Below are positions 13,901-62,600 of a DNA stretch of 64,000 nucleotides, in pieces. The notes below the pieces were generated by a model. That model saw nothing but the letters and a program-made list of their open reading frames with translations. It did not search any database and was not told the origin of the DNA. The DNA is from Clavelina lepadiformis (taxonomy: Eukaryota; Chordata; Ascidiacea; Aplousobranchia; Clavelinidae). Made by a program: the position numbers and the translations under genes. Positions within the stretch are counted from its first letter, which is position 1. The number at the start of each line of letters is the position of its first letter. The stretch is taken from contig NC_135240.1 of the NCBI RefSeq assembly GCF_947623445.1, forward strand, positions 22,630,001 through 22,694,000, in the 5' to 3' direction.

Positions 13901-16900
13901 CATGATAAAACCCATGTCCTCCAGCATCTAACAAGTAGTATATTATCACGTGCACTCAAAGCATTACATGCTTTCATTGTGATAATTTGCAATCGCTTAT
14001 TTTTATTTCTATTTTCCCGACTAACCAGTTTTAGGTCTTTCTTGGTGACTCGTCCTTTCCCAGATTTTGAATATCGGAGGAAAGTCTTTCTGATGGCGGT
14101 GTCATGCTGGGCCATCCGCTGCTTCAACTTGATGATCACTTCGGGTGCGGAGAATATGCGGGTGTGATGCAAATCCACTTTTTCTATCTCTCCGATCCTG
14201 AAGCAAGGCAAAATAACAACCTTTTATTTTGATGTCCTAGTCTGTAGAAGATGAAGGGATAAAGAGCGAAGTAGCGATAATATCGCAAATAAATAAATAA
14301 AGTTTGTCAGCTTCCAACCGATCCATTTGATCCGAGACTCTTCTTGTTTCTCTTTCGTTACTTTCATCATGGATTCTAGTGCTCGTCCCTTCCAGATCAC
14401 CAGGTTGGACGTCGATGCCAAGATTGTTGAGGAATTGCGCCAACATGATTCGGTCTTTGCCTTTTTGCTCGCATACATTCCACATTCTATCAAATATGCA
14501 TCGTATATAAAACACGCAGAATGAATCAATGAAAAAAGTTGTAACATGATAGAGTACAGTGAAGTATTTTCATATCATAAAACAATTAGCAATTTTGTTT
14601 AAATTTTAGTAATATATAATGACGACACGTTATGTCTACCTGTATTGCGATTATAAAATTGCTGGCAGTAGTTGGGTATATTGACTGTCTTGAAGCTAAC
14701 TTACTTGTTGAAATGGTTGTCCGAAACTGGAAGTGCGTATCGGTCAATTAGACGGCGAAGGTGGGTTTTTGACACAGATCCGTCTTCAACTTTATCCAAA
14801 GCAGCAAATTCACTCGCAACCTAACAGAAGCACAAACACATGTTCGAACATGCGGCATAATTATACCCTTCCAACAGATAACCCTGCCGGAACCTAAATA
14901 CGTTCGAATACTTGATACAAAGTACTTAATAAATTACTCTAAACGTAGTTACTATAAGATATGCATGGAGAATATGCAACTGACATACCAGCTTATAGTT
15001 TTCAGAGAGTTTTTCTCGCAAGATTTCCTCCACAGTTTCCCAAGCCATTATAGCGGGAGGTTGATTTTCATTAAACTTGTGGTCGGAGAAAAGCCATTTG
15101 TGCGCTGACACGGATTCTTTCGGCTCAAACAACTTCAAAAAACTGCCGTAAAACAGCAAAAATAGGTTATAACAGTTGATTAAATATTGATAAATGAATA
15201 AGCGTTTATTGCCAAAACATTATTACTGCGTTGTAATAACTCGTTTGTTTTAGTTTATTGACGTGCGTATAGAGTACGGGCAATCAAGCATATCGAGAAC
15301 ATTTATTTTATTTACTTATTTATATATTTATTTTATTTTATTTTATTTACATTTAATTATTTATTTTAACATTCATCGAGCCGATCACCAAAACAACTAT
15401 CTCTTACTTGTGGTAATGTATGAGTCCAGTGTGTTGAGGATCCAACTCTATCATCAGATCCTTGAAGTTATCGTCGGTGAGTTTTAGCGCAAAAGTTTCA
15501 ACAATTCGCCTCAAATCTCTGCGAGTAATAACCCCTTTCCGGTTCTGCATAAAGTATTAAGCAATAAAGCTCAATAAAATATACTTTTAGGCTTTATCAG
15601 GTGTAAAAACTGCACGCGTCTTATAGGAAATACAAAAAGTTATTTTCATAGTTTATTCACAAACAGGTTTTTCAAAATAAACCACATCCATGTATCATTT
15701 TAAAAACTTTTACCTCATCGAATGCAAGAAAAGCTTGCTTTAAAGTAGAGTAATTGTTAAGCACATGTTTTTTCAGCTTTTTAAGTATTTCCGGAGTTGT
15801 AGCATCACCTAAACTGTGGCGAATTGGATTAACCTGTAAAAAATTGTGACCAAAGTTACATTTGAAAAAGGCATTTTTAAAATGAAAGTAAAAATCAAAC
15901 CTTGTGATTTTGTCCAATGGGTAAAGTTTGTCCATTTCCACTAGATTGTGGATCCTGAAACTTTCCCAAAAATTGCTCCCAGGAAACTTTACCGGTACCA
16001 CGGACTTCATATCTAAATAACAACGCCACAGTTCACCACGCAATTGCTTTGATGATGGCATAAACATACTATATTAATGAATACAACCAACTAACTGTCG
16101 TGCCACGCGGCTTACGCAATGTACAGCACGGCAGTTACAATGCGAAGTTATGATGCAATGTGATATTCTGCCGAAAATGCAGTTTCAAAGCTTCAATGTT
16201 AATCATTTACTTGTACATGAGTTGATGAAATATTTCGTCGGTAGTAGGCAGTACAAAGTTATCGATTACAGCTTTTAAATCTTCGATTGTGATGAAACCG
16301 TCACCAGAGAAATCAAATGACATCATCGCCCTTTGTATGTTTTCGTAATTAACCTGCATCTGCAACAATTGCAATGAAAATTATTTAACACAGTTGCCAA
16401 CGTTAAGGGCATACATCGAATTTAATATATATCCGTCTGTGTACATTACTTTTTTTCGAAACTCTTTTTCAATCGCCGTGAATGACATTTCTTGAGTTCG
16501 TCTGCTTCTTCGCTTGTTTCTGTCCTTGTTTCGGTTTAACACAAGATCAGTCACATCTTTTTCTCGTTCAAGGCGCTTCTTCTTTGCATCCCAGGGGGCT
16601 TCAAAACAAAAGAAAGCAAAGTTATGCATATATGGTAGGATTATGGATTCGTAAGTACAACTTAAATAGAATTCAGTAAAGCTTGTCGTACGTTGTGATG
16701 TGGCAAAATAAAACAGTCGTACTTGACACATACCGTCATTTCCTCCTGAATCCTGGCTAACGTTTAAAAGTTGTCGTTCACCGGTAGCAGCATTGACTCC
16801 CAGTCTTCTGAGAAACTCTCTGTAATCGATTGCTCCAATATGGTGAAAGTCGTAGCGAGACCACAGTCTGCGTTTATCAAGGAAAAACGTCGACAAACAA

Positions 16901-18656
16901 AATTTCAGATAAAAGCATATATATGGAAAAACCCTATGAATAGCGGCACACTCTTGCTCTACTACTACTTACAAACTTAACACACATACTTTAGAAGTCG
17001 ATCAATAAATAACCTATGTTGTGAAATTTAAAGGTTGGTTTCGGCCTTTCCGATAGTTAAAAGTTTACTCTTGTCCCGTTTTAGCTCTTAAAATACACAA
17101 TTTGTTCAACGTGCAACTTCTATTAATCAATAAACATTAATAAAACAAAGCAGGGAAGGCGTACAAGTCAGGATATACTTGAGCTAGTCAAAATAGTATG
17201 CTATATACCCACTTGTCAAACTGAGAGTCTGACAGCTTCAAACAATAAGTTTCAATCACTCTTCGCAGCTCATGACGTTGCACTTGGCCGTCACGGTTGT
17301 AATCAAATAAACGAAGTCCTCTGACGACATTTTTAAGATTATCTGCTATTTTGTGTTGAAGATGACGTTCTATTGTATCAATACCTAAAAATGCAAGTAT
17401 AACCACCTAACTTTATAAGTTATTTCTTTTAATGACTCGTACTATGTATATTACGCGTTTGTTTCCAAATGCAGCAACTTACTTTGTTCTTGGGAAGTTT
17501 TGCTGACAGCAAATTTTTGTGGCTTTATTTTGCTTTCTATCAATCTACCGGCATGATCACGTTCATTACCGCTTAGTACTACAGCTGATTTCGAAATAGT
17601 AACTACGGGAGGAGATAATGGATTCCCGGAAAATTTCTCCAAAAATTTTTTGTATGAAATAGTTCCATTTGGATTAACATGGACCTAAAGAAGATAGATT
17701 TGAACACCTCTTGTTACTGAAGTGAAACAAAAACTTTAAGTTGGTAAACAAACTTACACGAGATTTAAAACCGGACAAAATTTAAAGGTTAACTAACAAA
17801 ATTGCCACCAATATTACAGGTGGTTTCCATTAGCTTTGTATTGGCTCATACCTTTGCCAAAAAATGGTTAAATTGATCAGTGGTTAACGGCAAACAGTAG
17901 TTTTCTAACACACGCCGAAATTCTCCTTTTGTCACGTTTGTACAACGCTCCGCGTCGTAAACGTGGAAGGCTTGTCTTATCGCATCCGCTTGTTCATTTA
18001 CTTTCTAAAAAGATGTTAAATTTTTTAGTAAGAAACCGATTAAATATGGTCACTTTCTAATGTTGTGCGACCATTCAAACCCGGCAATTAACACCTTCTG
18101 AGCCATCTAACCCGAGAATTCGGGGTTTCAATTGTCGTTATTTCCTTTTTAACTTTATAATGTTGCACTAACCTGTTTTATTACACTTTCTACTTCGAGT
18201 GCCGTTAGCTTGGGTTTCGCCAGCAGCATCGCAGCACTTTTGCTTCCAGATGAAGAGACGTGACTGGGAGGCTGAAATGATCGCGATGGGGGCATGGAGC
18301 TGCTGCGTAAACTCCGAACGTTTCGACCTGAGCACGACACGTAGAACTATTTACAAAAGTCGTAAATAACAACTTACGAAGAGAAAATATACTCTACGTC
18401 AATTAGGCTACTTCAGAAAAATGTGCGGAACTTAACTAAAGTAATGAGATACTGTGCATGCCTGCAGTAAGTTCTAAGCTAGTACAATTTAAAAAAGATA
18501 CCGGTATATTTTAACACGAACTTGAGGACTATGGGCAGCAAAAATACCTGTATTTAAAGCAGGTCGAGGTGAGAACACAATACCCCTGGAAGATGGTCTC
18601 AGGAGCGCCGGTTCTCTTGACGGCTCTCCTCGGCTTAAAACTTGCGCGCTTGCCAT
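7988..18656 (-). CDS. EFCAB6: EFCAB6, multi-EF-hand protein, 31 exons, about 1,578 aa
   Basis: Large calcium-binding EF-hand protein; human EFCAB6 (DJBP, about 1,500 aa) binds DJ-1 and androgen receptor and is linked to testis and cilia. Exons run leftwards from 18656-18548 and 18327-18173 through dense short exons to 9677-9543, 9076-8878, 8744-8557, 8378-8229 and 8110-7988; every junction keeps phase. Near-canonical calcium loops: DYNRDGQVQRHE (234-245), DFSGDGFITIED (374-385), DDDHDGVLTMEE (827-838), DADGNGIIKKKE (934-945), DKNKDGYITLAD (1066-1077) and DSDGTGTVLPDE (1412-1423). Other EF units have degenerate loops and may be structural. Human-like landmarks are FDRVWARQ, LLCWKEMRRTF and the C-terminus NDFIRAFLQ. 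The start at 18656 opens a Ser/Arg-rich leader with no EF-hand. The longest intron is 9678-11073. First-exon choice is less certain than the rest. Confidence 0.93.
15299..15366. repeat. TTTA-rich low-complexity tract
   Basis: About 65 bases of imperfect TTTA/TTTTA units inside an EFCAB6 intron. It looks like a simple repeat, likely length-variable, with no evidence of function. Confidence 0.7.
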
Positions 18657-24147: not shown

Positions 24148-25476
24148 ATAACTTTATTGATTTGATTATTATTGATAGATTGGTTTATGTAAAAAATTTC
24201 ACTAACAAAAATTTATTGAAATATATGTAAAATATAGGGCGACAATAGAGATAAGCTTACACAGATTATAATTATTTCAAGTTTAATTGCTGATAAAGAG
24301 GCAATGGCAGGCAAAGAATGCAATTGATCTGGTATGGTATCGGAGTATCAGTCTATAAAAATTGTATGATATCATAATCTTTATCCTGTCACTGAAGTAA
24401 CCTTAAGAGCGTTACTAAAAAGAATTTACCCTTCAGAGCGACTATTTCACCGTAAGTAGGTCATCAAGCCCGTAGTTAAAGATAGGCGATCAGGTATGGA
24501 GAATGGGTAGGTAATCTGTCGATTTAGGTCAAGCTATTTAGGGTTTAATTGAAGTTAGGTGTACCTGAGAAGAACGATTTAGGTTACTATGTTGTAACCT
24601 TAAACTTAGGTTAACAAGAAATCCTGAAAAGCTTTTAACGTACGATTTTTCCCAGTTTAACGATTGCGTTTACTACAGTATTATGCCGTTTCACCAACGG
24701 TTTTGTCAATGGGCATTCCCCACTGTTCTTGTTATTAACTTCGTTATGAATGCTATTTTAGTTAGAATGTTTTAAAAAAACTTGACATATTTATAAAAAA
24801 AAGAGAAATTCTAGAAAAATTATATTTGTACTGGAGGTCACACTAAAGGCTAATACTACTATTACTATGATATGTTACATTATTATGTGTGCATGTTTCA
24901 AAACTTTCCTGCCATGTTTAAATAAATTGATTTCTTTGATTATGGAGATTTCCATGATGCAAAAGCAACGCAATGGAAATTTTTGAAAATAGGTAGATAG
25001 CATACGTAGGATTACCCAAGGACGGTAATATTTGTATAAAATTCCTATTTGCACATCTTAAAAATGCGAGACGAGAAATTATCTGAATCAATAAGACAGC
25101 AGACTACGGTAGGAGACGTTGCTTTTTCTAAGGTTTTGTTTAATAGCGTTCTTTGTTCGGTAGCCTACGGTATCAGTCGGTCAGTTGCAGTTTACCTAAA
25201 CAAGTAGGCCTATTGTATGCGAAATACGGTATTTTGGTTAAAAATGCGATTGTCGTTTGGATGATCCTCAAGATCGAAAGTTCTTCTCAAGAATTTTATG
25301 AGATTTTGTTTAATTTGTATCAAAAATAACTTGCGTAGATGTTAATTGCAAATACTTTTTTTGTAAATTCTCATTTTACAAGTTTGTAACCATGATTAAA
25401 ACTCGATTCTCAAAGGTGATGGTTAAAGTATGAGTATTTTCTGAAGTAAGTTTTTGCATAAAAAATAAATTATAAA
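24148..25476. other. Divergent intergenic region between LIPT2 and UBR7
   Basis: 1.3 kb separates two genes transcribed away from each other, so it should hold both promoters. It is AT-rich. I see no repeat, RNA gene or recognisable promoter element. UBR7 may have a non-coding first exon here, but no clear donor-acceptor pair was found. Confidence 0.45.
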
Positions 25477-26679
25477 ATGTCAAGAATGTCTCAAAAACGA
25501 AAACATGATGAGGACGAAAACAATCAAGAATCTATTTCTCTACAAGATGTCATCGAAGAAGACCAGGAAATGGAAGAAACGGCAGATGCAGTTCTTGGAG
25601 CCAGTGATGATCAGGAGTGCACATTTACAAAGGGATACCTAGGAAGACAAGCTCTGTATGCTTGTGATACTTGCAGCAGCATAGATGATTCACCGGGCGG
25701 AATATGCTTGGCATGCTCCCTGGAGTGCCACAATGGTCATGATCTATATGAATTATACACAAAACGTCATTTTCGTTGCGACTGTGGAAATGACAAATTT
25801 CCTGAATTAAAATGTAAACTCATTCCTGACAAGGATCCCAACAACCCCGAAAACATTTATAGTCGAAACTTTAATGGGTTGTACTGCATGTGCAAACGAC
25901 CCTATCCAGATGAGGAAGATGATGTTGAAGATGAAATGATCCAGTGTGTTGTCTGCGAGGATTGGTTTCACGGACGCCACCTCGGTGAAGCAGCAATTCC
26001 AACTAACATGGGCTTTTCCGAGATGATATGTTTCGACTGTTCAAAGAGTTACACATTCTTACACAAGTATAGTGCGTTGTTAGTTAGCCCTGTCAAGTTG
26101 GAGAAATGCTTTGAGGAAGGTGATGTTGATGTTACAGATATGAAAGCCAGTCCAGTAAAATCAGATGGAGCTGCTGCTATTGCCTGCTTGCCCATGAAAG
26201 AGGAAAATATAAAAACCGATAGTGGTGATGTTGCTAATGGAAGCGGCAGTACATCAAATGATTCATCTTTCTGCAAAATTGAAGGTGCTATCCCCGTGAA
26301 GATCATTGGGGCTACATTTTGGCCAGCAGGATGGAGAGCAGTGCTGTGTAAATGCAACAAGTGCATGGATATCTATAACGACTTCAAGGTGCTTTTCCTG
26401 CTTGATGAAAACGACACTGTGTCTTCATATGAAGAAGAAGGAAGAAAAAAAGCTCTCGCAAATAAATACGAAAAACAAGAGAATGCCTTGAAGGGGATGT
26501 CTAGGGTGCACCAGGTAGAGATGCTACATGGATACAACGACATGAAAGAAGGTCTCACTCAATACCTAAGAAAATTTGCTGAGGAAGGAAAAGTTGTCAC
26601 TGCAACAGATATTCAAAATTTCTTCAGTGGCCTCAACAATAAGCGCCAGAAACTGGACATGTCTTACAACTGCCGTTAA
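25477..26679 (+). CDS. UBR7: UBR7, UBR-box/PHD E3 ubiquitin ligase, single exon, 400 aa
   Basis: UBR7 is a putative nuclear E3 ligase of the N-degron UBR family; human UBR7 (425 aa) has been reported to modify histone H2B. One uninterrupted frame. Residues 1-47 are acidic. The UBR box spans about 48-114, rich in Cys/His, with CDTCSS, CLACSLECHNGHDL and HFRCDCGN. A PHD-type finger follows at about 137-188 (GLYCMCKRPYP, CVVCEDWFHGRHLG, MICFDCSKSY). Residues 200-270 are a variable linker. The C-terminal UBR7-specific part includes FWPAGWRAVLCKCNKC. Length and domain order match the family, so it looks complete. Unlike most genes here it has no intron, which suggests intron loss or replacement by a retrocopy. 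No poly(A) tail remnant or flanking duplication was seen. Confidence 0.95.
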   Translation: MSRMSQKRKHDEDENNQESISLQDVIEEDQEMEETADAVLGASDDQECTFTKGYLGRQALYACDTCSSIDDSPGGICLACSLECHNGHDLYELYTKRHFRCDCGNDKFPELKCKLIPDKDPNNPENIYSRNFNGLYCMCKRPYPDEEDDVEDEMIQCVVCEDWFHGRHLGEAAIPTNMGFSEMICFDCSKSYTFLHKYSALLVSPVKLEKCFEEGDVDVTDMKASPVKSDGAAAIACLPMKEENIKTDSGDVANGSGSTSNDSSFCKIEGAIPVKIIGATFWPAGWRAVLCKCNKCMDIYNDFKVLFLLDENDTVSSYEEEGRKKALANKYEKQENALKGMSRVHQVEMLHGYNDMKEGLTQYLRKFAEEGKVVTATDIQNFFSGLNNKRQKLDMSYNCR

Positions 26680-29883: not shown

Positions 29884-31575
29884 TCAGTCTTGTTGTCTAT
29901 TATGGTGTCTTGCAACAGGCTTAAAAGCAGTGATAAGTTTGCGAAGACGCTGCTGTGTTGGGCCCCACAATTCAAAGCCTGGGTCATTTTGCAGGAAAAA
30001 TATTAGTGTGCCATGAACGGCTTTGTGATAAACCTCTTTCTGGGGTGCAGCATGATGGAGTCCACTTCGATACTCATGTTCAAAAGCTGGTATGAGCACT
30101 TGCTTCCTTTTAAATGCACTATTTTCCATTCTCAGAAGTGCAACCGGGGTTGGGTCTCTCCATTCTGGCACAAAAACAATAAAAGACAGAGGTTCGTTTG
30201 ACTGTTTTAAAAGCTTCTCAAAGTGATCAACCATTGCTTCCATGAGCTCTTCTACAAATGGAGCATTCGCTTCAAAAGAGCCACGAACAGGGAAAAATTG
30301 AAGAATTGGGCCACTAGATCCAAAGTAGGTATCTGTGTCAGCGAATGCAGAGGAATAGTGTTTGTAGAAGCAATTTAAAGGAGAGGCAAAGCACTCCATT
30401 GTAACTCCAAAGGTATCGTGTAAACACTGGAACACTTGTGTAGGCAACGCACCGTGCAACATAATGCCTTCATACTGATTTGGTCCAAAAAATGTTTGGT
30501 ATCTGCGTAAGAGACACCATACCCTTGGTAAAAATAATTGCATAGTTGGATCGTCTTTACATGAACATCTGTATAGCTGTTCCAGTTTTTCCAAATACCT
30601 ATGATTAATTCTAAGGGTATTAGCATTGTATGTTAGTGATACAGTACCTTTAATTGCAACCTGGGTTATACTGTTAGTTAACATAGGAGTGGCACATAGC
30701 ATGGGTACTGGCTTTACAGGACATAATTTACCACTAGGCTGCAAGGGTGCGGGAACATCTATTTTGTAAAGCCTAAGTACAGCATGATGTTTGTCGAGTA
30801 GCTTTTTTGCATTTTCTTGTGCAATAAAGTACATCTTTTTGCAAATATTTTCCACAGAAAATCTTGCTGCTTCAACTAAATGTGGACCACACTGCCTTCT
30901 TATGTGAGCAAGTCGGTTTAAATAATCTGTCAAGACTGCATTTTGCTCTTTTCTAAGCCAGCTCAAAGTATCTTCGATGTGCCACTTCACAACCTTTCGA
31001 CTTTCGAGGCTTAAGTTTCTGCTTTCAATCATGTGCTTTGCTGCTTCACCGTAGCGGAACAATTGTCTTCTTGCATCAGAGCAAGATTTTATTTTGGAAA
31101 TTCGAATTGGAACATCATGAATAATCTCACGAAACATAGCAGGCGAGACATCATTGCAACAAGCTGTAGGCAGTATGGGATCAGTACCCTTGTCTGTAAT
31201 TTTTCTTTCCAATAGCCAGCGATTGAAGGATTCCTGTGGGGCGTCTATTCCTTCATTTTGTTTGCAAATATCCTGATATTCGTCTCTCATTTGCTTCACC
31301 AGGTTGAAGCGAAAAAACTCAACTTCAGGTATGGGAGGAAGAAAGATGCACGGAGCACCTTCCATTACAACTACATCAGATTCCAGAGAGAAATCCCAGA
31401 ATTTTTCAGCTTTAAACAACTTTGTGTCCTGGGGACTATTATTTGTTTCTATCTCTGCAAATTTTCTTTTAGCTGTTTGACTTGTGGAAGGATCCAAGTC
31501 AGAGGAGCGAGTTTCAGTCAGTGGTGAATGCTCTTTAAAATTTTCATTGTTTTCATGAACATCTAACGCCTCCAT
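29884..31575 (-). CDS. PCIF1: PCIF1/CAPAM-like cap m6Am methyltransferase, single exon, 563 aa
   Basis: Vertebrate PCIF1 methylates N6 of 2'-O-methyladenosine next to the mRNA cap and binds the phosphorylated RNA polymerase II tail through an N-terminal WW domain. This frame matches the human protein in the helical and methyltransferase parts: EVEFFRFNLVKQMRDEYQ, ASPLNCFYKHYSSAFADTD, YFGSSGP, SFEANAPFVEEL, LSFIVFVPEWRDPTP and AFEHEYRSG. Two differences stand out. There is no WW domain: the frame starts about 80 residues before the conserved core, an in-frame TAA precedes the ATG, and a splice acceptor lies only 33 bases upstream. The catalytic N-P-P-F motif reads N-A-P-F at 437-440. Length is 563 versus about 704 in human. 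Activity is therefore uncertain. The gene has no introns. Confidence 0.93.
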   Translation of the reverse strand: MEALDVHENNENFKEHSPLTETRSSDLDPSTSQTAKRKFAEIETNNSPQDTKLFKAEKFWDFSLESDVVVMEGAPCIFLPPIPEVEFFRFNLVKQMRDEYQDICKQNEGIDAPQESFNRWLLERKITDKGTDPILPTACCNDVSPAMFREIIHDVPIRISKIKSCSDARRQLFRYGEAAKHMIESRNLSLESRKVVKWHIEDTLSWLRKEQNAVLTDYLNRLAHIRRQCGPHLVEAARFSVENICKKMYFIAQENAKKLLDKHHAVLRLYKIDVPAPLQPSGKLCPVKPVPMLCATPMLTNSITQVAIKGTVSLTYNANTLRINHRYLEKLEQLYRCSCKDDPTMQLFLPRVWCLLRRYQTFFGPNQYEGIMLHGALPTQVFQCLHDTFGVTMECFASPLNCFYKHYSSAFADTDTYFGSSGPILQFFPVRGSFEANAPFVEELMEAMVDHFEKLLKQSNEPLSFIVFVPEWRDPTPVALLRMENSAFKRKQVLIPAFEHEYRSGLHHAAPQKEVYHKAVHGTLIFFLQNDPGFELWGPTQQRLRKLITAFKPVARHHNRQQD

Positions 31576-31608
31576 ATCAGGACAGTATTACTACATCAAA
31601 TAAGAGCA

Positions 31609-34449: not shown

Positions 34450-42454
<8,005 letters not shown>

Positions 42455-50315: not shown

Positions 50316-53300
50316 ATGGATGTGAAGTACGCAAGTCCTTGCTCCTCAGCCGAGGGTGGTATTGGAGAAGGGATCGACCAGCATGAAATGAAAGAAACTG
50401 AGGCAAAAACTGCTGTAAGTGAATACCTGAATACAGGTTATTACCCTATTGGAAAGTTTGTATGATGCAGCGGGTTTCTGCATCATGCACAAAGCTGGGT
50501 TTTGCGCCAATTTTATGGCGTAGAATTGCCGCTTGGCTTTATATTGTATGTTACAAGTATTCACTGGTGCATTTATCTGGGGTTATTATTGCTTGCATTT
50601 TAGCCTAGAACACATTATTGGACATATAAGAGTATTTTATAAATGAGTCGTTATGTATTATTTTAAACTTGTAATATCCAACAATGTTTATAACACAAAA
50701 ACAGCATTATACAGCTAATCAGTACAACAAACAATTACAAATAAAATTTTTACTTCTAACCTATCTACACAATGGTATCTACTGAAGTTGCATGGAAGCC
50801 AGTTTGAGAAGTGTATTGGTATAAATAATGATTTTTTACTATAGGCCTCATTAATTTAAACCACTTTGTTTTGTTAAAAATTGGCGCTTTATTGAGGTAC
50901 CCATGCACCTATTGCAGTAAAATTCTTTACAGAGCTTTACTGTGACTTGAATGAAGTAGAACTTGCCTAAGAAAACAGGCAAAAAACCAGATGGAATTTT
51001 CCATTGTAGAGAAACAGTCAACTTAAACAAATGAAACACTCACTGTTTTTTGCTTGTTTGTTTACTGTATTGAATCAGTTGACATAAGTCTAAGATAGCA
51101 TGTATTTATAACTACAATAGATTAAGGCACGAAAAAAGAACTTCACTGAAAATCCAATTGCACCCAAAATGATTCAATTCAAATAAAAGAATATATAAAA
51201 TTGGTCAATCACTGCACGTAAGACACACATTAAAATCTGACACCTATGAAAACGTAATTTAAAAATATGTAACATTTGTTGTAATCCAGATTAGTGTTTT
51301 TTATTATTGATGTGGCATACCCATTCCTAAATTGTCACTTTGTAGTTGGATTTGGACAAAAAGGTTTCTGGATTAAAGGGATGAGTAGTATGGGAAGAAA
51401 CTCGTTGGCCTAGCAGTTTAATGTTGACTATTGGGGATTCCGTTTTTTCTGGGTTTAGGTTAACAAGAACTGACTAACTGTACATAATTGATTTAATATG
51501 GTTCTTTGTATGCAGACTGATATTCTTCGTACAAAAGGCTTGCTTTCTTCTGTTGATAATGAGGATAAAGACTTGAAAAATGAAGAAAAGATTGCCTGGA
51601 TGAAGAATGTGGATCAGGAGAAAGCTGAATGGGATGCTCTTGACTTGATGAAGCATGCAGGTATTGTATTGGGCTATTGGCATATGTTTGAGCACATGTG
51701 TCACAGACCGTTTTGAAATTGTGTGCTTTTTAGAAAACATGCTTGTACGAATTCAGTCTCATTAGTTGGTATTTTTATATATTATGATAACTTGTTTGGT
51801 AAGGGAATAACGTGATACCTCAAAATTCAAATGCCCTTAAACTCAAACAGCTCAAAATTCCAACAAATGTTTATAAAAAATTTGTGCCGGCAGTCAAATT
51901 TTTTTTGAAATTTAATCATTACTAAATGTACATACGTAAACAATACTTTCAACAAGTAGATACTTTTTCATTAGAAATCTGTTTACGAGTATAACGTAAA
52001 GAATTTCTTTCTTTTGTTTTTTTTTGCATTTATAATGGTACATATTGTAATGCTATTATTGTTTGCGTTGGGTATCAGTTATTTCAGGTATTTACTAGTT
52101 CTTCTTACTGAAACATGAGGTATTCTGAGAATGGAATAGTTTACTGTAATTTACATTGTTTCATATGGGAAACATTGTTTTAACTTCCATCCAGAAAAGC
52201 TTTACATTCTACTTAATTTTTTTAAGAATGAAAAATCCTTAAGTAATGTGGGCTAATTTGAATGTGCCTGATAGGAGTGAAAAGCTAACTGGCATTTTTA
52301 ATGCTCTTTGACGTCAAACAATAAGTAAGAAAAATGTTGTTGCTATGCAAACCTGCAATCAGTCATTGCAATAGAGGATTTTCAAGCTTTTTGTTTGTAC
52401 TCTATATCGTTGTCTTATTTTGGGATTGCATTGGCATTAGTCATTTTATGATTTAAGTGTCTTGCCTTTTTAATGAATGTGTGATAACTTGCATGTAAGC
52501 TTTGATAAACTTGAGTGGCAAAAATCAACTTGAGTCACCTTTTATTTTTAATTTTAGTTAGCGGTGTTGTTAAAGCAATAGAAGACATACTGTTTCCGGA
52601 AGCTCTGCAGTTTTTTCAAACTCAGGCTGTCGGATCTACAGAAGGTTTTACAAAAAAACGGCGTTCACGAGTTTCACAATTGATGAGGCTAATTTTTGGT
52701 CCAAGACGTTTGAATAAATCTTTGCACCAAGAACGTGATTTGATATGTCGCATAAGCCAGGGTAAATTATACTGCTTGAATGATATTTATAGTTTGTTTT
52801 AAAAGATTACAGGGTTAGTCCAAAACCATTGAAATATTTTTAAAACCCTTTTACATATAGATACAGTATATACCTTTTTATTGCATGTTATATTGTTTAC
52901 TACCGGTACTATAAAAATACCATTCTGGTCTAAATTTGTATCTTTTTCACAGAGATGTTTAAGTTACAAGGCCTTCATTGCTAAGGTGATACATGTTTAT
53001 TGTATAAATTTCAGCTATGTTGAATCATGATGAACCGGTACATTGTCGAGTTATCCAAACAATTTACAAGCGTCTAATTGGTTCCAAACACAACTGCCCC
53101 AACCATGGGCCCCATTGGGAAGTTATTGGTTTTCAGGGTGGGTAGGAGTAAGGCAGGATTTATTTTCAGCATCTTGTCTCTTTTATGCACCTTGTCGCTT
53201 TTTATGCAATTTTTGTGGATTTGCTCACAGGTCATGATCCTGCGACTGACTTGCGTGGAGCTGGATTTCTTGCACTCCTTCATCTGCTGTTCCTCGTCAC

Positions 53301-54210
53301 AGAACACCCGCATGTTGCTGTTGAAATTTATCAACTCTCGACACATCCTGTACAAAACTTCCCATTTTGCTTAGTTTCTATAAATGTTACCAGAATTGCA
53401 CTTTTGGCTTTACGTGAAGATAAGCTTTCCAGGTTGCAAATAATTATTTGATTTTTATTGATTATGTCTGGAGTTAATTTTTTAATCAATTTTAAAATAT
53501 TTTGATTGTTAAACTAACAAGTTTTCGATGAAATGGTTCTGTTAATTTTATTCAACTAATGTTATTCGGGAAAGAACTAAGTTTAAAAAATAATTTTTGT
53601 TCAGAATATGCAACAAACGGAAACAAGTTGTTTCAGTTATGAATGAATTTTATCTTGCTGTCTTTTGGCATATTTACTATGTCTGGAAAAATCAACATAA
53701 AACAATGAATGAATCTGGTCACGTTATGAAGGGTAAGTGCGTGACTGCGTTAATAATCTTGCAGAACCAACAGAATAACACTTGTATTCCGACATACAAA
53801 ATTAACCAGGTTTAAATATTCTAGTACCAGAATAATAAAAACAACCAGTAATCAAAAAAAACTTAAATTGTCATTCATTAGCTGCGGAAATAACTGCTTT
53901 GAAAGATCCTGCAATGCTCATGAAAGCACTAAACAGTGCTCTTGAAATGAGAAGAAAGAAGTTGAGTGTTGTGCCTCCTACGATCGTCTTATCCAGGCTC
54001 TCCACTGCTTCAACGGATTCCGATGTGTCCACTCATTCTCCTGTACTGACTTCCCAATCGTTGGATGTTGTTTTGCAGCCAGTGGAGAGGGAGCGGGCAG
54101 ATTCCAAAACAAGCGATCCTCGATTTGCTGGGGTTCTAGAAATCTATAAGGAAGAGATGACTGTTACTCAAAGGGAAGAGAAGGAGACGAATGTCACATT
54201 GCAGTTGTAG
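50316..54210 (+). CDS. ELMOD3: ELMOD3, ELMO-domain GTPase-activating protein, 7 exons, 409 aa
   Basis: ELMOD proteins are GTPase-activating proteins for ARL2/ARF-family GTPases; human ELMOD3 (381 aa) acts at actin-rich and ciliary structures and is linked to deafness. Exons: 50316-50414, 51516-51660, 52558-52761, 53015-53137, 53231-53432, 53605-53732, 53882-54210, all in phase. The ELMO domain begins around residue 105 ([11 protein letters not shown]) and includes [29 protein letters not shown] and [20 protein letters not shown]. Arg199 in DLRG is the conserved residue needed for GAP activity in the family. The last about 75 residues are low-complexity and divergent. The first exon (33 codons) depends only on ATG and donor signals and is less certain. 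Confidence 0.92.
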
Positions 54211-55497
54211 TCTTCGGAAGCAATATTTTTTTTATTAGATGCCAAATGCATCTGAGTCTGCAGTTTTTCTGCTGCTGATAGGTAAGCTCTTCATTGTCTA
54301 CTTTAGGAATGATCATATGAACCCAAACCTCTTTCCAGTTTTTTAAATCTTATCACTGTGCTTGGTGGATTTGTGGGGTTGTGCTAGTTTGTTTTATATT
54401 TAACAGTTATTTGTAAATGAAAGTGGTGCTCGTTGTTCTGTGATAACAGTTAATTGTCTTGTTCTTTAAGATGAAAAGTTTGCTATTATGTTCCAAAATG
54501 CCACAAGTAATTCCACCCAAGGAAATGCACCCAAACATAGCCGTGGTATCAACGAGTCATGTTTAGAATCAGTTAATTGTAGCCTATGCTACCGAAATGA
54601 AGCACTTGGTTATGTGTAGATTACATATATATGTATTATACAGTGGGATCTCGTTATTCCGGAGTTCACTACTTGAAAGCTCACACCAATTTATACACAA
54701 TGTTCTATGGAGAAAAGACCTCATTGTGTATAGCTTCTCGTACTGGCTATATACTTTATCTTTTTCTCCACAACACCTATTTCCGAATAACAAAGTTTCA
54801 CTACTTTTACAACTTTCAGCCATCCATAACCATTGCGTTATAAAGGGAATGTTTCAACATACAACATTTCTGGGATATTTTCAATTTTAGATATTATAGA
54901 TATGATGTTGGTCTGTGTGTACGTCAAACAAGTCAGTAATTCCGATGAAGTAAGGGGTTATGAAGTTTGTTTACCGTAATATAAATATGAAAACTACCTA
55001 AGGTCTTGTATAGGTGCATTTTCTTACGGGTGCAAATGTTGTGGCAACCACCTGTTTCTACTTGCAAATTTGCACTACAATTGATTGCTGATTTCATATA
55101 CTCTGTCATTTTTATTTTGCCTTACCTTGATGTAAATTCTTATTTGCTTTTAATTGTTTACTTCGGAAACATTTTATGTCTTTAGCACTGTGTGTTGCTC
55201 AATATACCTTTGCTGTGTCTGTATGATGCATTGCTATGTGCCGAGTTAAATGTGAAATTAGCTCAAAAAATTGGCTTTCCACTTCAACACTTTGTGTCAC
55301 ACTCAAAGTATGATTTTTGAACGTTTTCATCCCCGTTTTTCGCTGGCCCTGTTAAACACTTAGCTAATCAAAAAGTAGGTTAAATCATAAAACCAAACAG
55401 ATATAGATTTGGAGAATAAAGCACTCTGCTATTTCACAAAAAGAGCTTAATATATACAGTGCGCATATATGAAAGGCAATGAAAGAACCCGCAAAAT
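54211..55497. other. Intergenic between convergent ELMOD3 and the four-repeat gene
   Basis: Contains the 3' UTRs of both genes. No coding frame, repeat or RNA gene could be supported. Confidence 0.45.
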
Positions 55498-58302
55498 TTA
55501 CATGATAGCGCAACCGACAAAACAGCAAAATGGTTCGGCCGGTTTGTCTGTGGGTGGCTCCACCACGTTAGTGAGAGTGTTGGGCTTAAAAAAGACTCTG
55601 ATAACAGTCAGCCTGCATTCCAAAGAGCTTCTGCACAATGTTGAGACATGATCTTCCTTGTTGTAGGTCCGCGAAGGCAGCATGGTGTGGACATTGTATG
55701 AACTTTTTTGCCACTTTTCAACATTGTCGGTTTGTACGCATATAACTTCAGCACCTTGAAAGGAAGTTGTAAGCTCGTGTAAAAAAGATGTAGCCTATTG
55801 TACGATTTTGTATAAATATAATCACACAATATAACTCACGCAAGGTTAATCACACAGTACATGGAATAACCAATGCTGGAGTTGGGTTGTTACACTATTA
55901 TGCAAACCTGTTCGAGACAACCAGTCGTTCATTCTTGCTACGGTATGCCGCATGGTCGCATGGATGGCCCTTTGAGCTCCGCAGCACCATCTTGTGGTTA
56001 ATTGACATGGCACAAAGGTTGCCATGTCAATTTCCTGCTTCAGATCTTCCCCAAATAAGCTTAACTCCATTGACTTTCTGCCATCGTCTTGAACGTTTTC
56101 CCGTGAATACCACACCCTCAGTACTCGCAACGTTGTATGCAGGGCACTGACCCGCGTCGTTTCAAAGCAAGAAATACTGGTGTTGAGGTAACCTTTAGAC
56201 GCATCTGAAAAAATTATCGATGTTGTGATGATGATACCATAATTGCTTGTAATAGTTCAAAGACTTGTATGTTATACTGACTCAAATGTCTCATCTTGAA
56301 GGGAAATTCCACCGATTGAATATTGATAATCTTTTTTGAACGCTCCCTTTTCATCCAGTCGCTCGCTTTTATTATTAAAGTCGCATGTGATTCGAATTGT
56401 GGAGTCGACGGCGGCATTGAAAGAATTCCGGGAACGAAATCCACATATCCTATAGGCAACACCGTGCTGTAACGTAAGTATTTTAACCACTGTGATACAG
56501 CGAGTACCTAGGTCTGGGCTTGTGTTATGAGATTCGCTGTCAGCAGAATAGATCCTGATCATGAAAAACTCCCAAATTCCCTGTGCGTCAACATTGCAAT
56601 AGGTCGTGTCTGCATTCAAAGTTCCGTCTGTGCGATGCGCAATGGCGTAATTAAGTGGAACCGTTTCAGCGTTAAGGAACCTTCCTGCATACAAAAAGTA
56701 CGTTATGTTAAAGATAACTTACAATTTATCAGGAATTTCTGTTTAAAACACCAAGGAAACTTAGCGCAAACTCTAGTCATTTACGCCTTCACCGCAAGAA
56801 TATTTCACTCTTTTTGTAGATTCAGGCCCACCTTGTAGAGGCATTGCCTGCATTTCTTGGTTCAATTTTTCTAAGGTTTTCGGAAGATCTTCCATGTACG
56901 GACAATCTCCTCGCTTCCACTTTCTGTCCTTGTTTTTTGTTTTGTAATCCGGGATAATGTTTTGGTAGTTTAGTATCGTTGGACGAAATTTATCAGGCTG
57001 GCGTTTAACCCACAATCTAAAAAGAGTTTGATAAAGATCCCTCATGTAGTTGGGCAAACTTAGCCTACAATAGTGATTACAAAATGATTTTCCAAGCTCC
57101 TTTGCTATTTTAATTTTCCTTTTTCAAATGAAACATAGCAGGGCCCGCAGCGGTAACTTACCTAAGTCCAATAACATATGAACGATCATCAGAAGCAGTG
57201 TTTTCTGTATTCAGTTCATGAAACTGATCCATACGATGGCGGACGCTCTCGCATTGTGTAACTTGGTATTCCGCGTTTTCGGCCAACCATAAATTTGCCT
57301 CTTCGACACACACTCTGTCGTGAAATTATAACACAAAAATTATTGCAAGATTAGCAATAAGACACGCTTTAAAATTATTATAATCTAACGATAAGATTTT
57401 CAGTACTGGGCCTACATTACCACGATTTTATGTTGTCACGTTTCTACATTAACCTACAACTCTTATGTTACTACTATACAAGCCTATGACACAGATTTGT
57501 ATTACAACGTATGCGCTATACAGTATAGCAATAAAAAAGCGATAACGTTTCTATTTTACCCAAATTCCTGATATTCCCTGCTCCAAAATGATTCTTTCAC
57601 TATTTTGGGAACAAAGTCAACGTAGTCTACGCTGTTGTTGCTCAGAAGTTGTACTTGACTCGTACCGGAAGCATTGGTTCTCAAAAGTGTTGTATACAGC
57701 GGCGAAGATATTCTGGAGTGGCTTCGACTAGCTGAAGTGGATTTAATGAAGGGTGTCTCGACGCGAACAGTTCCTGGATCTTCACTTACGTTGGGTACGT
57801 CCACAGAATCGAAGCTGGGTTGTTCTTGCTCGTTTTTTGCAACCGTACCATAAGGAGTGACGTTTCCATAATACTTCTCAAGTGTCGCAGAGTTGAACTC
57901 TTTGTACTCTGTGACGTCTTGCTTATGTGTAGGCACTGTATACGAGGTGGATTCAGAAACACATGGTGAAACACTCCTGTCTCTTTTGGTTACACTTTGA
58001 CCGTCCGGAACGACCACCAGTTTCCTGTATGTGCGCTCTTGCTCTGGAGTTTGCAGCAGAGACATGGTTTGCTCCGGAACTGCAAGTCCAACATTCTCTT
58101 CCCCGTGTTCTGAAGCGTCTTGTTGGTTCGTGCTTTTCACTTGAGTCAGGTTTGGTGATACTCTTCCACTTGCACCTTTAATCACGTGATTTTGTTTTTT
58201 GATTTGACTCGATTGAGTTTTTGGTGCTGAAAGCTTTTCTCCAGCTTGCCATTGTGATGAATTTACAGAACTTTGTACAAAAACCTGTTGCTGTTTTTCC
58301 AT
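55498..58302 (-). CDS. Unrecognised four-repeat protein, 7 exons, about 659 aa
   Basis: Function unknown to me. Exons: 58302-57560, 57314-57162, 57016-56832, 56684-56508, 56449-56282, 56204-55908, 55754-55498; phases close to a stop at 55498. Residues 1-220 are Gln/Ser/Thr-rich and probably disordered, with no signal peptide or membrane segment. Then a unit occurs four times, each as DFVP-like start, aromatic stretch, N-x-W-L-like helix, CESV-like strand and LRLW-like strand. Unit 1 is 225-305 (YVDFVPKI, EANLWLAEN, TQCESV, IGLRLWVK). Unit 2 is 313-407 (NIIPDY, LEKLNQEM, FLNAETV, FFMIRIYS). Unit 3 is 420-512 (YVDFVPGI, KASDWMKR, NIQSVEF, LRVLRVWYS). Unit 4 is about 535-633 (MATFVPCQ, RMNDWLSR, VICVQTDNV, LTVIRVFF). 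An intron falls inside each unit after the W-L segment. The repeats themselves support the splice model. Confidence 0.75.
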
Positions 58303-59615
58303 TTCTTGTATATAGGCTATAAAAAGCTGTATTCACAATATTGTAGCCTCATTGTTGTCGCCTATACTTAATAATTCGATGTGTAAAGAATTCAATTTTT
58401 AAACTAATTAACCTTCAATTTTTTGTGCAGTATTTGCCACAATACGATGCTGACCTTAATGCAATTAGAGAATAAATATTGAGATAAGCCAGCAACTATA
58501 GCATCTAAATCTTTTAAGACAATAAAACTAGTAAGTTAAAGCTATTCTCTAACCAGACGTATCAGCACAATACTACGCGACCGAGCTTTATAATGTCTCT
58601 AAAACATATAGAGTTAGGCTGCTTTTTAAAATAGCGTTTCATATTTCGAGTAGTAGATGTCGCTCTGTTGCTATCAATATCTACAGTAAAATGACAACAC
58701 GCAGAACATACGACAGGCCACAAGATAAGCTAAGAGCTTCATCTAAATGTAATAAGAGTCCGTATGCGAAGCATTTAAGGTAACCTAATATTCACTGTTC
58801 TTTATTATCACTGCTCTGATGAAGGTCAAGATTACTCATCCCCAGAGTAAGATAAAACCACGCTGAAAGTTAAGTTCAGCAAAGTTGTTTTATCTTCTGG
58901 TGTATAATATCACGACATTTCTTCTGGCATTCGATAATCCCATTAGCGCTAGTCATTTCAACGCCTGTCGTTCAAGCGTCATGTCGCCAAAAAATGTCGA
59001 CCCAACGTAATTATCAATTCCCAAGCGATTAGGCATTAAGAAAAACCATCGAAGCGTGGCTGATTTCGACAGCTGAAACGATCGGACTTGAAGAGGTCAA
59101 CCGAGTCAAAAACCTATGCCATTGCAACCTGACTCAATCTCTATTGCCATAAATTGCAAATGTTTGATGAATTTGGATTACAAGATAGCACATGCACTAA
59201 ACAGTACATTTAAAAATGCAATGTATCGTGATTGTATTATTGCACAAATTCCGAACAAATAACCTACATAATGATGGCATGTTCCCGTATACTCAATCAA
59301 ATAAAAACCACGCAAAAATATGCATCCAAAACTTCTAGTGAACTGCGCATCTCCTGAACAAAAATTAGGGAAACTGCGCAGTAACATACGGAAGAATAGG
59401 GGGCAGTGTAAATTAAAAGTGCACGCAAAATTAACAAATTTACTCATTTAAGTGAAAAGTCTATTTTCTACCTATTAAAAGTATTTCTGTAATCTATATT
59501 GTTCTCTTGTAGCGTCAATTACATCAATTAGTTGCATATAACCAGTGAACAAAGTTTATAATCATAAAACGACTACTTCATTAGAAGTTATAAAAAATTT
59601 GCAACTGGCTTCAAA
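58303..59615. other. Intergenic between the four-repeat gene and HACL1
   Basis: 1.3 kb, AT-rich. It should contain the promoter of the four-repeat gene and the HACL1 3' UTR. No further gene or repeat recognised. Confidence 0.45.
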
Positions 59616-62600
59616 CTACATCTTGCTCCTCGTCAGCCAGCCGAATTCCTGCTTCTTTCGGCTGGACGAGGGATCAATCATGACGTTGATCAAGCTCGGA
59701 TTTTGATTGGAGCGCGACAAGCAACGTTGAAAAGCTTTGGCCAATTGGTCAGCGGACTCACAATAATGGCCTTCCTCTCCAAAGGCTTCCATCACCTTCT
59801 CATAACGGGCATTGGGGGAAAGGAAGATAGGCAATGCTCTATGAAGCGGAAGATTGTATTAAACGGGCGGCAACTTATCAGATGCCTGAAGTAGATGCAC
59901 CACATGAATGGTTGTATGAAGCAGAGAAACGCTGTTTTGCATCGTTTTAAAGTCTGACCACGTCTTCTCCTCTGCTCATAGATTTCAAAAATATTCAGAA
60001 TGATATCACTTAGCACATACTGTCGCACTTTGTACAAATATTCCGGCATTGACATGTTAATTGCATTTAAACGGCAAACTATTTGATTTACACTCGGTCA
60101 CATATGACTACAGCGTGTATACGTTTAATGTGTCAAGTTATTTCACGATGATGAAGATACCGGCGACTTACCCCACAGCGATCTCGTCAGTAGTTTGCAA
60201 ACCTTCCCAAAATTCTTTGCCGGCTCCTTGCCCGATGCCGTTGTTATTTACAACCACGAAGACAATGGGCAGTTTGTATCGACAAACGGTTTCTAGTTCC
60301 ATTCCAGAAAAACCGAAAGCGCTATCGCCCTGGATACAGACCTGCGTTGGCAATAAGAGAGTCGTTAGAAAAAAAGTCATTAGGATTAACAAAAGAAAGT
60401 TTATAGACCTCTGGCAGTCAAGTGATTATCAATTGTGCGACGATGACGTCACCAATGAACCGAGCGGAACCCCATAAATTTTGTAAATCCTAACGAAAGA
60501 TTTATAACCTTTCTAATCTTTTAGCACTTACTAATCTCAAGATTATGCAGGACAAGGGCGTTAAAGCCGTTTGGATTAACTGCTTATCAACACATCATCA
60601 CAACTTAACGTAGCTATTTTTTGTAAAGGAGGTCGTTAGAGAACGTATGCACACTGAAGATAGCATGGTAAAGTTAACCCGTCAGTTTAGTAGCAAAAGC
60701 AGCTTTTGAAAATGAAGTAATAAGTTAATATCAGGATTATTATTATAGTATTCACAAAGATGAAAACTGTTCAAAGGCTTTGTTCAACGTATGAGCAATA
60801 ACACGAACCACTTTCTCCGGCTCAGCTCCATTTTTACGAGCTGTATCAGCAGCATACAGGCTTGCAGCGATCGCGAATCCGAGTCCCAACCCCATTGTGC
60901 CGAAAGTCCCTGCATCTAACCTGCAAGTAGTTCAAATTATTTTACAAACACTTACAAAGGTACAGTTTGACGAAGAAATTGTAGTGACGACGAAGTGTAC
61001 AGGCTTTTAAACAACGCTTAACTCCGCTATAAAACACACCTGTGGCGTGGTAGGTAATTCGGAATTGTACTTCGGCAAATATCCATGGTGTTTGCGCCCT
61101 CACTGACGATATAACAATCCTTTGGCAGTTGTTTTTTAAGAACGTCAAAGACAGCGTAGTAATTGAGTGGCACAGATTTGTCGTTGGCAATGTCCTACAA
61201 TATCACATAGAGAGCATATTTAAGCATAACGTCCCTAGCACTCTGCACGGGTTTTGACAAAAGTAACCTCTGTCTGTTTTGCATTGGAATTTATCTTTTC
61301 CTGCAACGTTTTCCACCATTCAGACTGCATGGGGAATTTCCAAGCAACACCTCTGTATGTCTTGTGATAACACTCATTAAGCTGCAAACATTTAAAATAG
61401 AAAAGAGACATGAAAAAGTTTAAAAAGACACTTTATCATTTTGTCTCACGCTGGCCGAATGTGAACTGATTCAAACCTGTTTTACAATGTTGCGCACGTC
61501 TCCGAGTAAAGCAACAGTCGTTGGCACGTTATTGTGAAATTCCTCAGGACAAATGTCAACTTGAATAATTTTCACATTCTTCTGAAATCGAGGAGTCCTG
61601 TTACGAGCATTATAAGTACGATTTGTGTTCAAGTGTATCAAGTGGATTGCATTAAAAGTGAAGAGAGTTGCACACAAAATTACCTTCCAAAGTGTAGCTG
61701 CCAGTTAAGCCTTGCCCCCAGAAGTACAATCACATCAGCATTAAGCAATGCACTAAGAAGAAAAAATGTTCGTTAAAAAAGAAACAGAAATTAAACGTAT
61801 GTTAATAAAACCTTTTCTTAGATACACATCTCCAATCTCCAGTGAACATCTTAATATGACAAAATTGTGCTTCACCGTGAACGAGCAGCTGCAACTGAGA
61901 GTGGGTGGTCATCAGAGAGAACCCCTTTACCCATTGGAGTTGGAAGAAATGGAAAGTTGTGTTTTTCCACAAGTTCCTTTATTTCTTCGTGAGCTCCAGC
62001 ATATGCAGCACCCTTTCCAACAACCACAAGTGGGCGCTTTGCACTTTGCAGAACACGACATGCTTTTTCTACATCGCCTGGATCAGCCAAACTTCGAGGA
62101 GGAGGAGGACACATGCCACGGAATCTTAAGAAAAATTTCATTAGAAACACAGAAAACACATAACATTTGTACTTACGTAAATGTAAAAAAAAGAACAGAC
62201 GAATAAACTTTATTGTCGAGGTTACCTTAGCGTTTTACTTTTGACTTGTGCATTGACGAAATTGCCAGGTATATCAACATAACAAGCACCAGGGCGGCCA
62301 TACATTGACAAACGGACTGCCTTTTCAATAATTTCAGGGATTATCTCCATATTTGTTGGCTTTTCGGAGAATTTACTGTACATGCGGCAAGCCTCTACCT
62401 GAAAGAAAACAAGCATTTTAACGAAAACTTCGTTAATCACACCTGAAACGATGATGCAAGCATCATAGATTGTTTTATGGTGGTCTCCAAGGGTTAACAA
62501 ATGATATTCTTCCCTCTTAATTTTAAAAATGGTGACCACAAAACAACAATGCGCATGCAATAAATCTCTATGAAAACAATACGCGCACCCAGGCTAATTT

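Follow-up and report, generated by a model that had tools for sequence, protein, structure and literature searches.

A predicted tunicate protein with divergent tandem modules and a CaaX-like C-terminal tail

Small protein modules built in the order strand-helix-strand-strand are described in Pfam as DUF4177 and DUF1737, and unnamed repeat proteins of animals may carry FVP, NxWL and GLRVWY segments in that motif order. A different kind of feature, the farnesyl-type CaaX box, places a cysteine, two aliphatic residues and a final X (Met, Ser, Gln or Ala) at the C-terminus of a protein. In doubly lipidated proteins, palmitoylation sites are found at cysteines close upstream of that end. One such box, CAIM, terminates lamin B1, which is farnesylated on it (PMC5074355, PMC7674641). 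Here we describe a gene of the ascidian Clavelina lepadiformis whose product would combine an array of small, diverged modules with a CAIM end.

The gene lies in a window of 64 kb, by which we mean the whole stretch of DNA that was analysed. Between 58302 and 55498 on the minus strand, seven exons join into one continuous reading frame of 659 codons plus a stop (model B), in agreement with the initial annotation, which had placed seven exons in one frame at these same coordinates. The exons and the sites downstream of them are as follows.

Exon 1, 57560 to 58302, minus strand: ATG, a 226-residue N-terminal region rich in S/T/Q/N and of low hydrophobicity, and the putative first strand of unit 1 (YVDFVP); ends in phase 2.
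Exon 2, 57162 to 57314, minus strand: putative helix of unit 1 (EEANLWL), CESV strand and loop; ends in phase 2 inside the last strand.
Exon 3, 56832 to 57016, minus strand: C-terminal end of unit 1 (LRLW), then the first half of unit 2 (NYQNIIP ... LNQEM); ends in phase 1.
Exon 4, 56508 to 56684, minus strand: second half of unit 2 (AETV ... MIRIY); ends in phase 1, followed by a 58-nt intron.
Exon 5, 56282 to 56449, minus strand: first part of unit 3 (YVDFVP ... SDWM ... IINIQSV); best-scoring donor at 56282, phase 1.
Exon 6, 55908 to 56204, minus strand: remainder of unit 3 (LNT loop, VLRVW), then the first half of unit 4 (ATFVP ... MNDWLSRT); acceptor at 56204 or 56192; ends in phase 1.
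Exon 7, 55498 to 55754, minus strand: second half of unit 4, the C-terminal tail and the stop.
Candidate poly(A) signals, 55111 to 55154, minus strand: ATTAAA from 55154 and AATAAA from 55116, 3' of the stop.

Splice sites were scored with a generic consensus matrix over all stop-free, in-frame GT/AG combinations at each junction, the flanking frames and search ranges being those of the model itself. The model's junction ranks first for introns 1, 2, 3, 4 and 6 (among 20, 7, 7, 4 and 25 open in-frame combinations, respectively), and the sixth junction, that of intron 5, is carried by its donor: among eight combinations, donor 56282 comes first, with acceptor 56192 (-2.4) or 56204 (-2.9), and stands about 8 bits above the best combination using donor 56342. 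Acceptor 56204 yields a protein of 659 aa and acceptor 56192 one of 655 aa. Two further solutions for intron 5 were set aside. Model A (donor 56342; 639 aa) uses a donor ranked 196th of the 203 GTs in the region and would leave unit 3 a loop of 7 residues (counted by eye) against 22-35 in the other units; model C (56278/56176) has a poor donor, ranked 159th of 203. Model A is probably the chain behind the initial annotation, as its 639 residues fit the "residues 220-640" named there.

Phase-compatible sites can be picked by an observer, and the chain could then be an artefact of that choice, made of mis-joined open frames or of a decaying gene, the true product being shorter and exon 4 continuing unspliced to a stop just after 56275. 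Exon 4 is indeed open without splicing to 56275, and the donors of three introns score modestly (-1.0 for intron 1, -1.6 for intron 4 and -2.6 for intron 5). Several observations argue against such mis-joining, however: unit 3, which is read in another frame, is clearly like unit 1 (0/1000 shuffles, see below), the generic matrix selects the same junctions, and G+C is higher in the exons (40-48.5%) than in five of the introns (30-37%; the 58-nt intron 4 has 43%). We consider mis-joining very improbable, and the gene model appears reasonably supported and ordinary-looking. Just 5' of the ATG, AG dinucleotides are present at 58312-58335 (minus strand), one of them after a short T run, and are possible cis or trans-splice acceptors that would lead to upstream exons or a spliced leader.

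An ELMO-domain exon at 53152-53448 on the plus strand (PF04727, E 1.8e-18) indicates that an ELMOD-like gene adjoins the repeat gene on the opposite strand. Thiamine-pyrophosphate enzyme exons (PF02775, PF00205), which we take to belong to 2-hydroxyacyl-CoA lyase, occupy 60168-62234 (minus strand). Elsewhere in the window, an uninterrupted 567-codon open frame at 29887-31587 (minus strand) matches PCIF1 (PF12237, E 1.2e-70) and could be a retrocopy or an intron-poor gene, and a 405-codon frame at 25462-26676 (plus strand), presumably UBR7, carries a zinc finger of the UBR-box type (PF02207) together with a cysteine pattern that looks PHD-like by eye. A partial nuclear-receptor C4 zinc finger is found at 1294-1632 (plus strand; PF00105, E 5.9e-9). 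The protein-kinase-like piece at 36024-36581 (minus strand; PF00069, E 1.7e-5, below the cut-off) perhaps forms one gene with a frame at 40331-40723 that looks kinase-like by eye. Likewise, an EF-hand exon at 13211-13513 (minus strand; PF13202, E 4.4e-6) lies among frames from about 10957 to 17000 that are EF-hand-like by eye and perhaps make up one long EF-hand gene.

Beyond its N-terminal region, the predicted protein of the repeat gene was divided into four units:

Unit 1, 56998 to 57624, minus strand: residues 227 to about 305, with introns 1 and 2 inside.
Unit 2, 56545 to 56970, minus strand: residues 315 to about 407, with intron 3 inside; marginal likeness to the others.
Unit 3, 56095 to 56449, minus strand: residues 421 to about 512, with intron 5 inside.
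Unit 4, 55579 to 56028, minus strand: residues about 535 to 633, with intron 6 inside.

The units were compared by single-sequence local alignment against shuffles, with unit 3 taken under each of the splice models A, B and C. The relation between units 1 and 3 is strong whichever model is used (0/1000 shuffles in each; under model B, a local score of 56 against a shuffle mean of 23.5), and judged by their sequences they are certainly copies of one domain. Pairwise likeness of units 3 and 4 is weak (19-29 of 1000 shuffles), and units 1 and 4 compare at chance level (225/1000). A profile of units 1 and 3 finds unit 4 at 4/2000 shuffles (20/2000 with unit 3 as in model C), a profile of units 3 and 4 recovers unit 1 (2/2000), and a profile of units 1 and 4 recovers unit 3 (0/2000). 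We also used an unbiased profile alignment, set up with units 2 and 4 kept out of view and scored against 400 shuffles and 462 natural pieces, in which the score of unit 4 was matched by 3 shuffles and 2 natural pieces; two pieces taken from the N-terminal part of exon 1, scored in the same way, were matched by 312/400 and 54/400 shuffles. The relatedness of unit 4 is thus moderate, and its place as a copy of the same domain is supported. At least two copies that resemble each other beyond chance, the mark of a multi-copy single-domain protein, are found here in units 1 and 3 and in unit 4.

Unit 2 is more difficult to place. Its pairwise scores are at chance with unit 1 (629/1000) and unit 4 (692/1000), and with unit 3 under model A (693/1000) and model C (462/1000), with 36/1000 under model B. 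The profile of units 1 and 3 finds it at 5/2000 shuffles, but in a shifted register; neither that profile with unit 3 as in model C nor the profile of units 1 and 4 matches it; and it fails the profiles of units 1, 3 and 4 (256/2000) and of units 3 and 4 (457/2000). In the unbiased profile alignment its score was matched by 5/400 shuffles and 16/462 natural pieces. A five-block test put all four units beyond 1000 shuffles (0/1000), but this test overstates the case because the blocks were picked with all four units in view.

These results bear on the possibility that only units 1, 3 and 4 are true repeats and that residues 315-407 are an unrelated linker or another domain. Such an arrangement would explain the chance-level pairwise scores of unit 2 with units 1 and 4, its failure in the profiles of units 1, 3 and 4 and of units 3 and 4, the 16 of 462 natural pieces that match its score and the second strand that is not predicted in it. 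Less easily accommodated are the similar order of its other predicted elements, an intron that aligns with that of unit 4 in place and phase, its 5/400 in the unbiased alignment and its 0/1000 in the block test, biased as the latter is. We regard a three-copy protein as doubtful but a serious contender, and unit 2 as a likely, still putative, copy of the same domain. The four divergent copies of the initial annotation are accordingly retained for units 1 and 3 (0/1000) and unit 4 (3/400, 2/462), with unit 2 marginal (5/400, 16/462).

We propose, from the aligned sequences, a common order of elements consisting of a strand YxDFVP, a helix ANxWL, a strand xVxxCESV, an LNT loop and a strand GLRLWY. 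The loop takes the forms LNTENT, LNADTT and LNTSIS and was not seen in unit 4, and the last strand appears across the units as GLRLW, MIRIY, VLRVW and VIRVF. Simple propensities of the Chou-Fasman type reproduce this strand-helix-strand-loop-strand order clearly in just two units, 1 and 3; unit 2 lacks a predicted second strand and has its other elements in a similar order, and in unit 4 only part of the helix is predicted. AlphaFold2 was applied to two pieces that can be read from contiguous DNA. For unit 4 translated straight through intron 6, which adds 51 residues and puts Gly in place of three stops, it returned a mean pLDDT of 40.7 and, at that low confidence, placed a helix at NDWL and strands at AEVICV and at LTVIRVF. 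Applied to exon 5 with a three-row alignment (two partial rows), it returned one long helix at a mean pLDDT of 61.2, which runs against the proposed helix-then-strand order, the input here being a truncated module. Neither model (pLDDT 40.7 and 61.2) gives a confident fold by which the shared fold asked about in the initial annotation could be judged. A small alpha/beta domain, as the initial annotation had it, is plausible, with propensities that are clear in units 1 and 3 and partial in units 2 and 4, but both AlphaFold2 models are of low confidence. We infer that the units, including unit 2, would share one fold.

The N-terminal 226 residues consist of 38.5% S/T/Q/N and 25% hydrophobic residues, compared with 24% and 36% over the remaining residues, a composition that suggests a flexible or disordered region. 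Over the whole protein no membrane span was found, the highest 19-residue Kyte-Doolittle mean being 0.82.

Introns 1 to 6 lie in phases 2, 2, 1, 1, 1 and 1. In units 2 and 4, introns 3 and 6 respectively fall at one aligned place, just 5' of the second strand, at a Gly codon and in phase 1, although this shared place is uncertain because the alignment of unit 2 is itself uncertain. The intron of unit 3 falls later, within the loop; unit 1 has two phase 2 introns, one 5' of the helix (the W-L segment) and one within the final strand; and intron 4 sits at the border of units 2 and 3. The claim that an intron interrupts each copy at almost one position after the W-L segment holds, by alignment, for two of the four units only (units 2 and 4, phase 1), and the array lacks the recurrence of one intron position and phase in every copy that defines an exon-phased repeat. 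Growth of the gene by exon-pair duplication, which had been drawn from that claim, is a weak proposal, since the units differ in the position and phase of their introns and only units 2 and 4 seem to share one. Doubling of a two-unit block, with units 1-2 giving rise to units 3-4, would agree with the resemblance of unit 1 to unit 3 and with the intron shared by units 2 and 4, but remains a guess because unit 4 resembles unit 3 (0/1000) more than it does unit 2 (25/1000) by sequence in the same analysis as the five-block test.

Searches for relatives covered domain libraries, structures and genomes. Pfam, queried with the exons and then with the whole model, gave nothing over the cut-off (best E 0.0024, 17.1 bits versus a cut-off of 27), and the four units found no NCBIfam model over its cut-off and no significant PHROG (best E 0.071). 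The profile search for a known family that had been advised was in this way run with Pfam, NCBIfam and PHROGs, and no match passed a cut-off. Matches below the cut-offs to FANCI_HD1, MotY_N, CATSPERG, Sulfotransfer_4, Ribonuclease_T2 and DUF3884 were ascribed to chance, as none recurs across units, and weak matches to two NCBIfam models and one PHROG were treated likewise for the same reason. Sequence searches of the PDB returned one match at E 0.63 for unit 1 with the first half of unit 2, and one at E 0.56 for a four-unit profile (A2). Pattern scans, which reach close relatives only, gave one unconfirmed match in viral contigs (unit 1 as query), 11 matches in contigs of prokaryote species, none of them confirmed (units 3-4), and no match in phage records (units 3-4). 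The general resemblance of the units to DUF4177 and DUF1737 in the order of elements did not extend to the searches: neither family was listed by hmmscan at E up to 10 or matched in the genome at E up to 1, and we do not retain them as distant kin. Literature searches for such a domain or such a CaaX protein gave no pertinent paper among those listed. The view that the gene encodes an unrecognised protein with tandem copies is borne out: nothing in the libraries searched passed a cut-off, three copies have statistical support and a fourth is possible.

In the organism's own genome (209 Mb, 95 contigs), four protein queries detected no second copy, one row at E 6.9 being taken for noise, and the gene appears to be single-copy as far as searched. 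A probe composed from the FVP/NxWL/GLRVWY motif matched only this gene in the genome, and weakly (E 0.05 and 0.5). The same genome contains, at C9:12557714-12558331, a cellulose-synthase-like exon that includes QRSRW (L023:1255-2184, minus strand), a tunicate mark. The best NCBIfam match of this 309-aa frame is cellulose synthase TIGR03030 (E 3e-31, 108 bits; full-length cut-off 699), and all six PDB sequences among the matches listed are cellulose synthases (best 5ej1, E 7e-22). Because the TIGR03030 profile, at the genome-search threshold, also matches in 11 of 14 control prokaryotes, identification of the frame as a cellulose synthase rests on the PDB ranking. PMC6523144 reports cellulose synthase from every tunicate genome sequenced and from no other metazoan genome, which makes a tunicate host very likely and supports the ascidian origin assumed in the initial annotation at the level of tunicate.

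We also identified a CaaX-like tail, a new observation that was absent from the initial annotation. The last residues of the protein read EPFCCFVGCAIM, followed directly by the stop.

C-terminal tail, 55501 to 55527, minus strand: CCFVGCAIM, comprising the CaaX box CAIM and, 5 and 4 residues ahead of the cysteine of that box, a pair of further cysteines.

The CAIM end has the farnesyl-type form, with Met as X. The predicted protein resembles CaaX-box proteins such as lamin B1, the Ras family and PPP1R16B in its C-terminal Cys-aliphatic-aliphatic-Met, here on a protein with no membrane span, and differs from them in its remainder, an unmatched array of repeats that gives no Pfam hit to these proteins. 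Candidate parts of the modifying machinery are present in the same genome, where prenyltransferase alpha-repeats (PF01239), which are common to other prenyltransferases, match seven times at three places, and the ICMT family (PF04140), which also matches in 5 of 14 control prokaryotes, matches three times at two places.

It could be that the repeats are real and that the CAIM end arose by chance, in which case the product would be soluble inside the cell, would bind partners by way of its repeat modules and would have no lipid anchor. Among the 1165 open frames of at least 30 aa with a stop in the window, a strict CaaX end is found in 4 (the repeat gene included) and a loose one in 10, which sets chance at about 0.3% (strict) per open-frame end for a box that was spotted after the fact. 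Against a chance origin, the tail stands on a frame with supported splicing, and its two cysteines lie close upstream, as in doubly lipidated proteins. Moreover, the four letters form a known farnesylation box (PMC5074355, PMC7674641), and we judge a chance tail to be unlikely, although by no means far-fetched. The identity of the box with that of lamin B1 could alternatively point to a protein of the lamina or nuclear envelope, tethered by CAIM in the manner of B-type lamins. Many other farnesylated proteins carry similar boxes, however, as a table in PMC7674641 lists, and Pfam gives no lamin-type match; a nuclear-envelope protein seems to us highly improbable.

The reading that we prefer, tentatively and at somewhat less than even confidence, is that of a lipid-anchored cytosolic array of small modules that acts as an adaptor or scaffold on membranes. 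The gene would encode a 659-residue intracellular tunicate protein with a flexible N-terminal arm of about 226 residues, three or four diverged modules and a CaaX box. We hypothesize that the CAIM tail may be farnesylated, trimmed and methylated and that the cysteine pair before it is perhaps palmitoylated, whereby the lipid tail would hold the protein on the cytosolic face of a membrane. There, the module array could serve as a multivalent adaptor for partner proteins, with the flexible N-terminal region as a regulated arm.

More broadly, the module might represent a new animal domain family, a strand-helix-strand-strand unit that is absent from the curated libraries searched and is arrayed on a farnesylated anchor as a multivalent, membrane-tethered adaptor in tunicates and perhaps in other invertebrates, a proposal that we consider rather unlikely. 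If it is true, the animal protein set would gain a domain so far undescribed, carried on a lipid anchor, and localisation and farnesyl labelling would then offer a direct cell-biological handle. The array also illustrates that repeats can drift far in sequence yet keep their order, and the gene model is useful for annotation and as a seed for profile searches in other animals.
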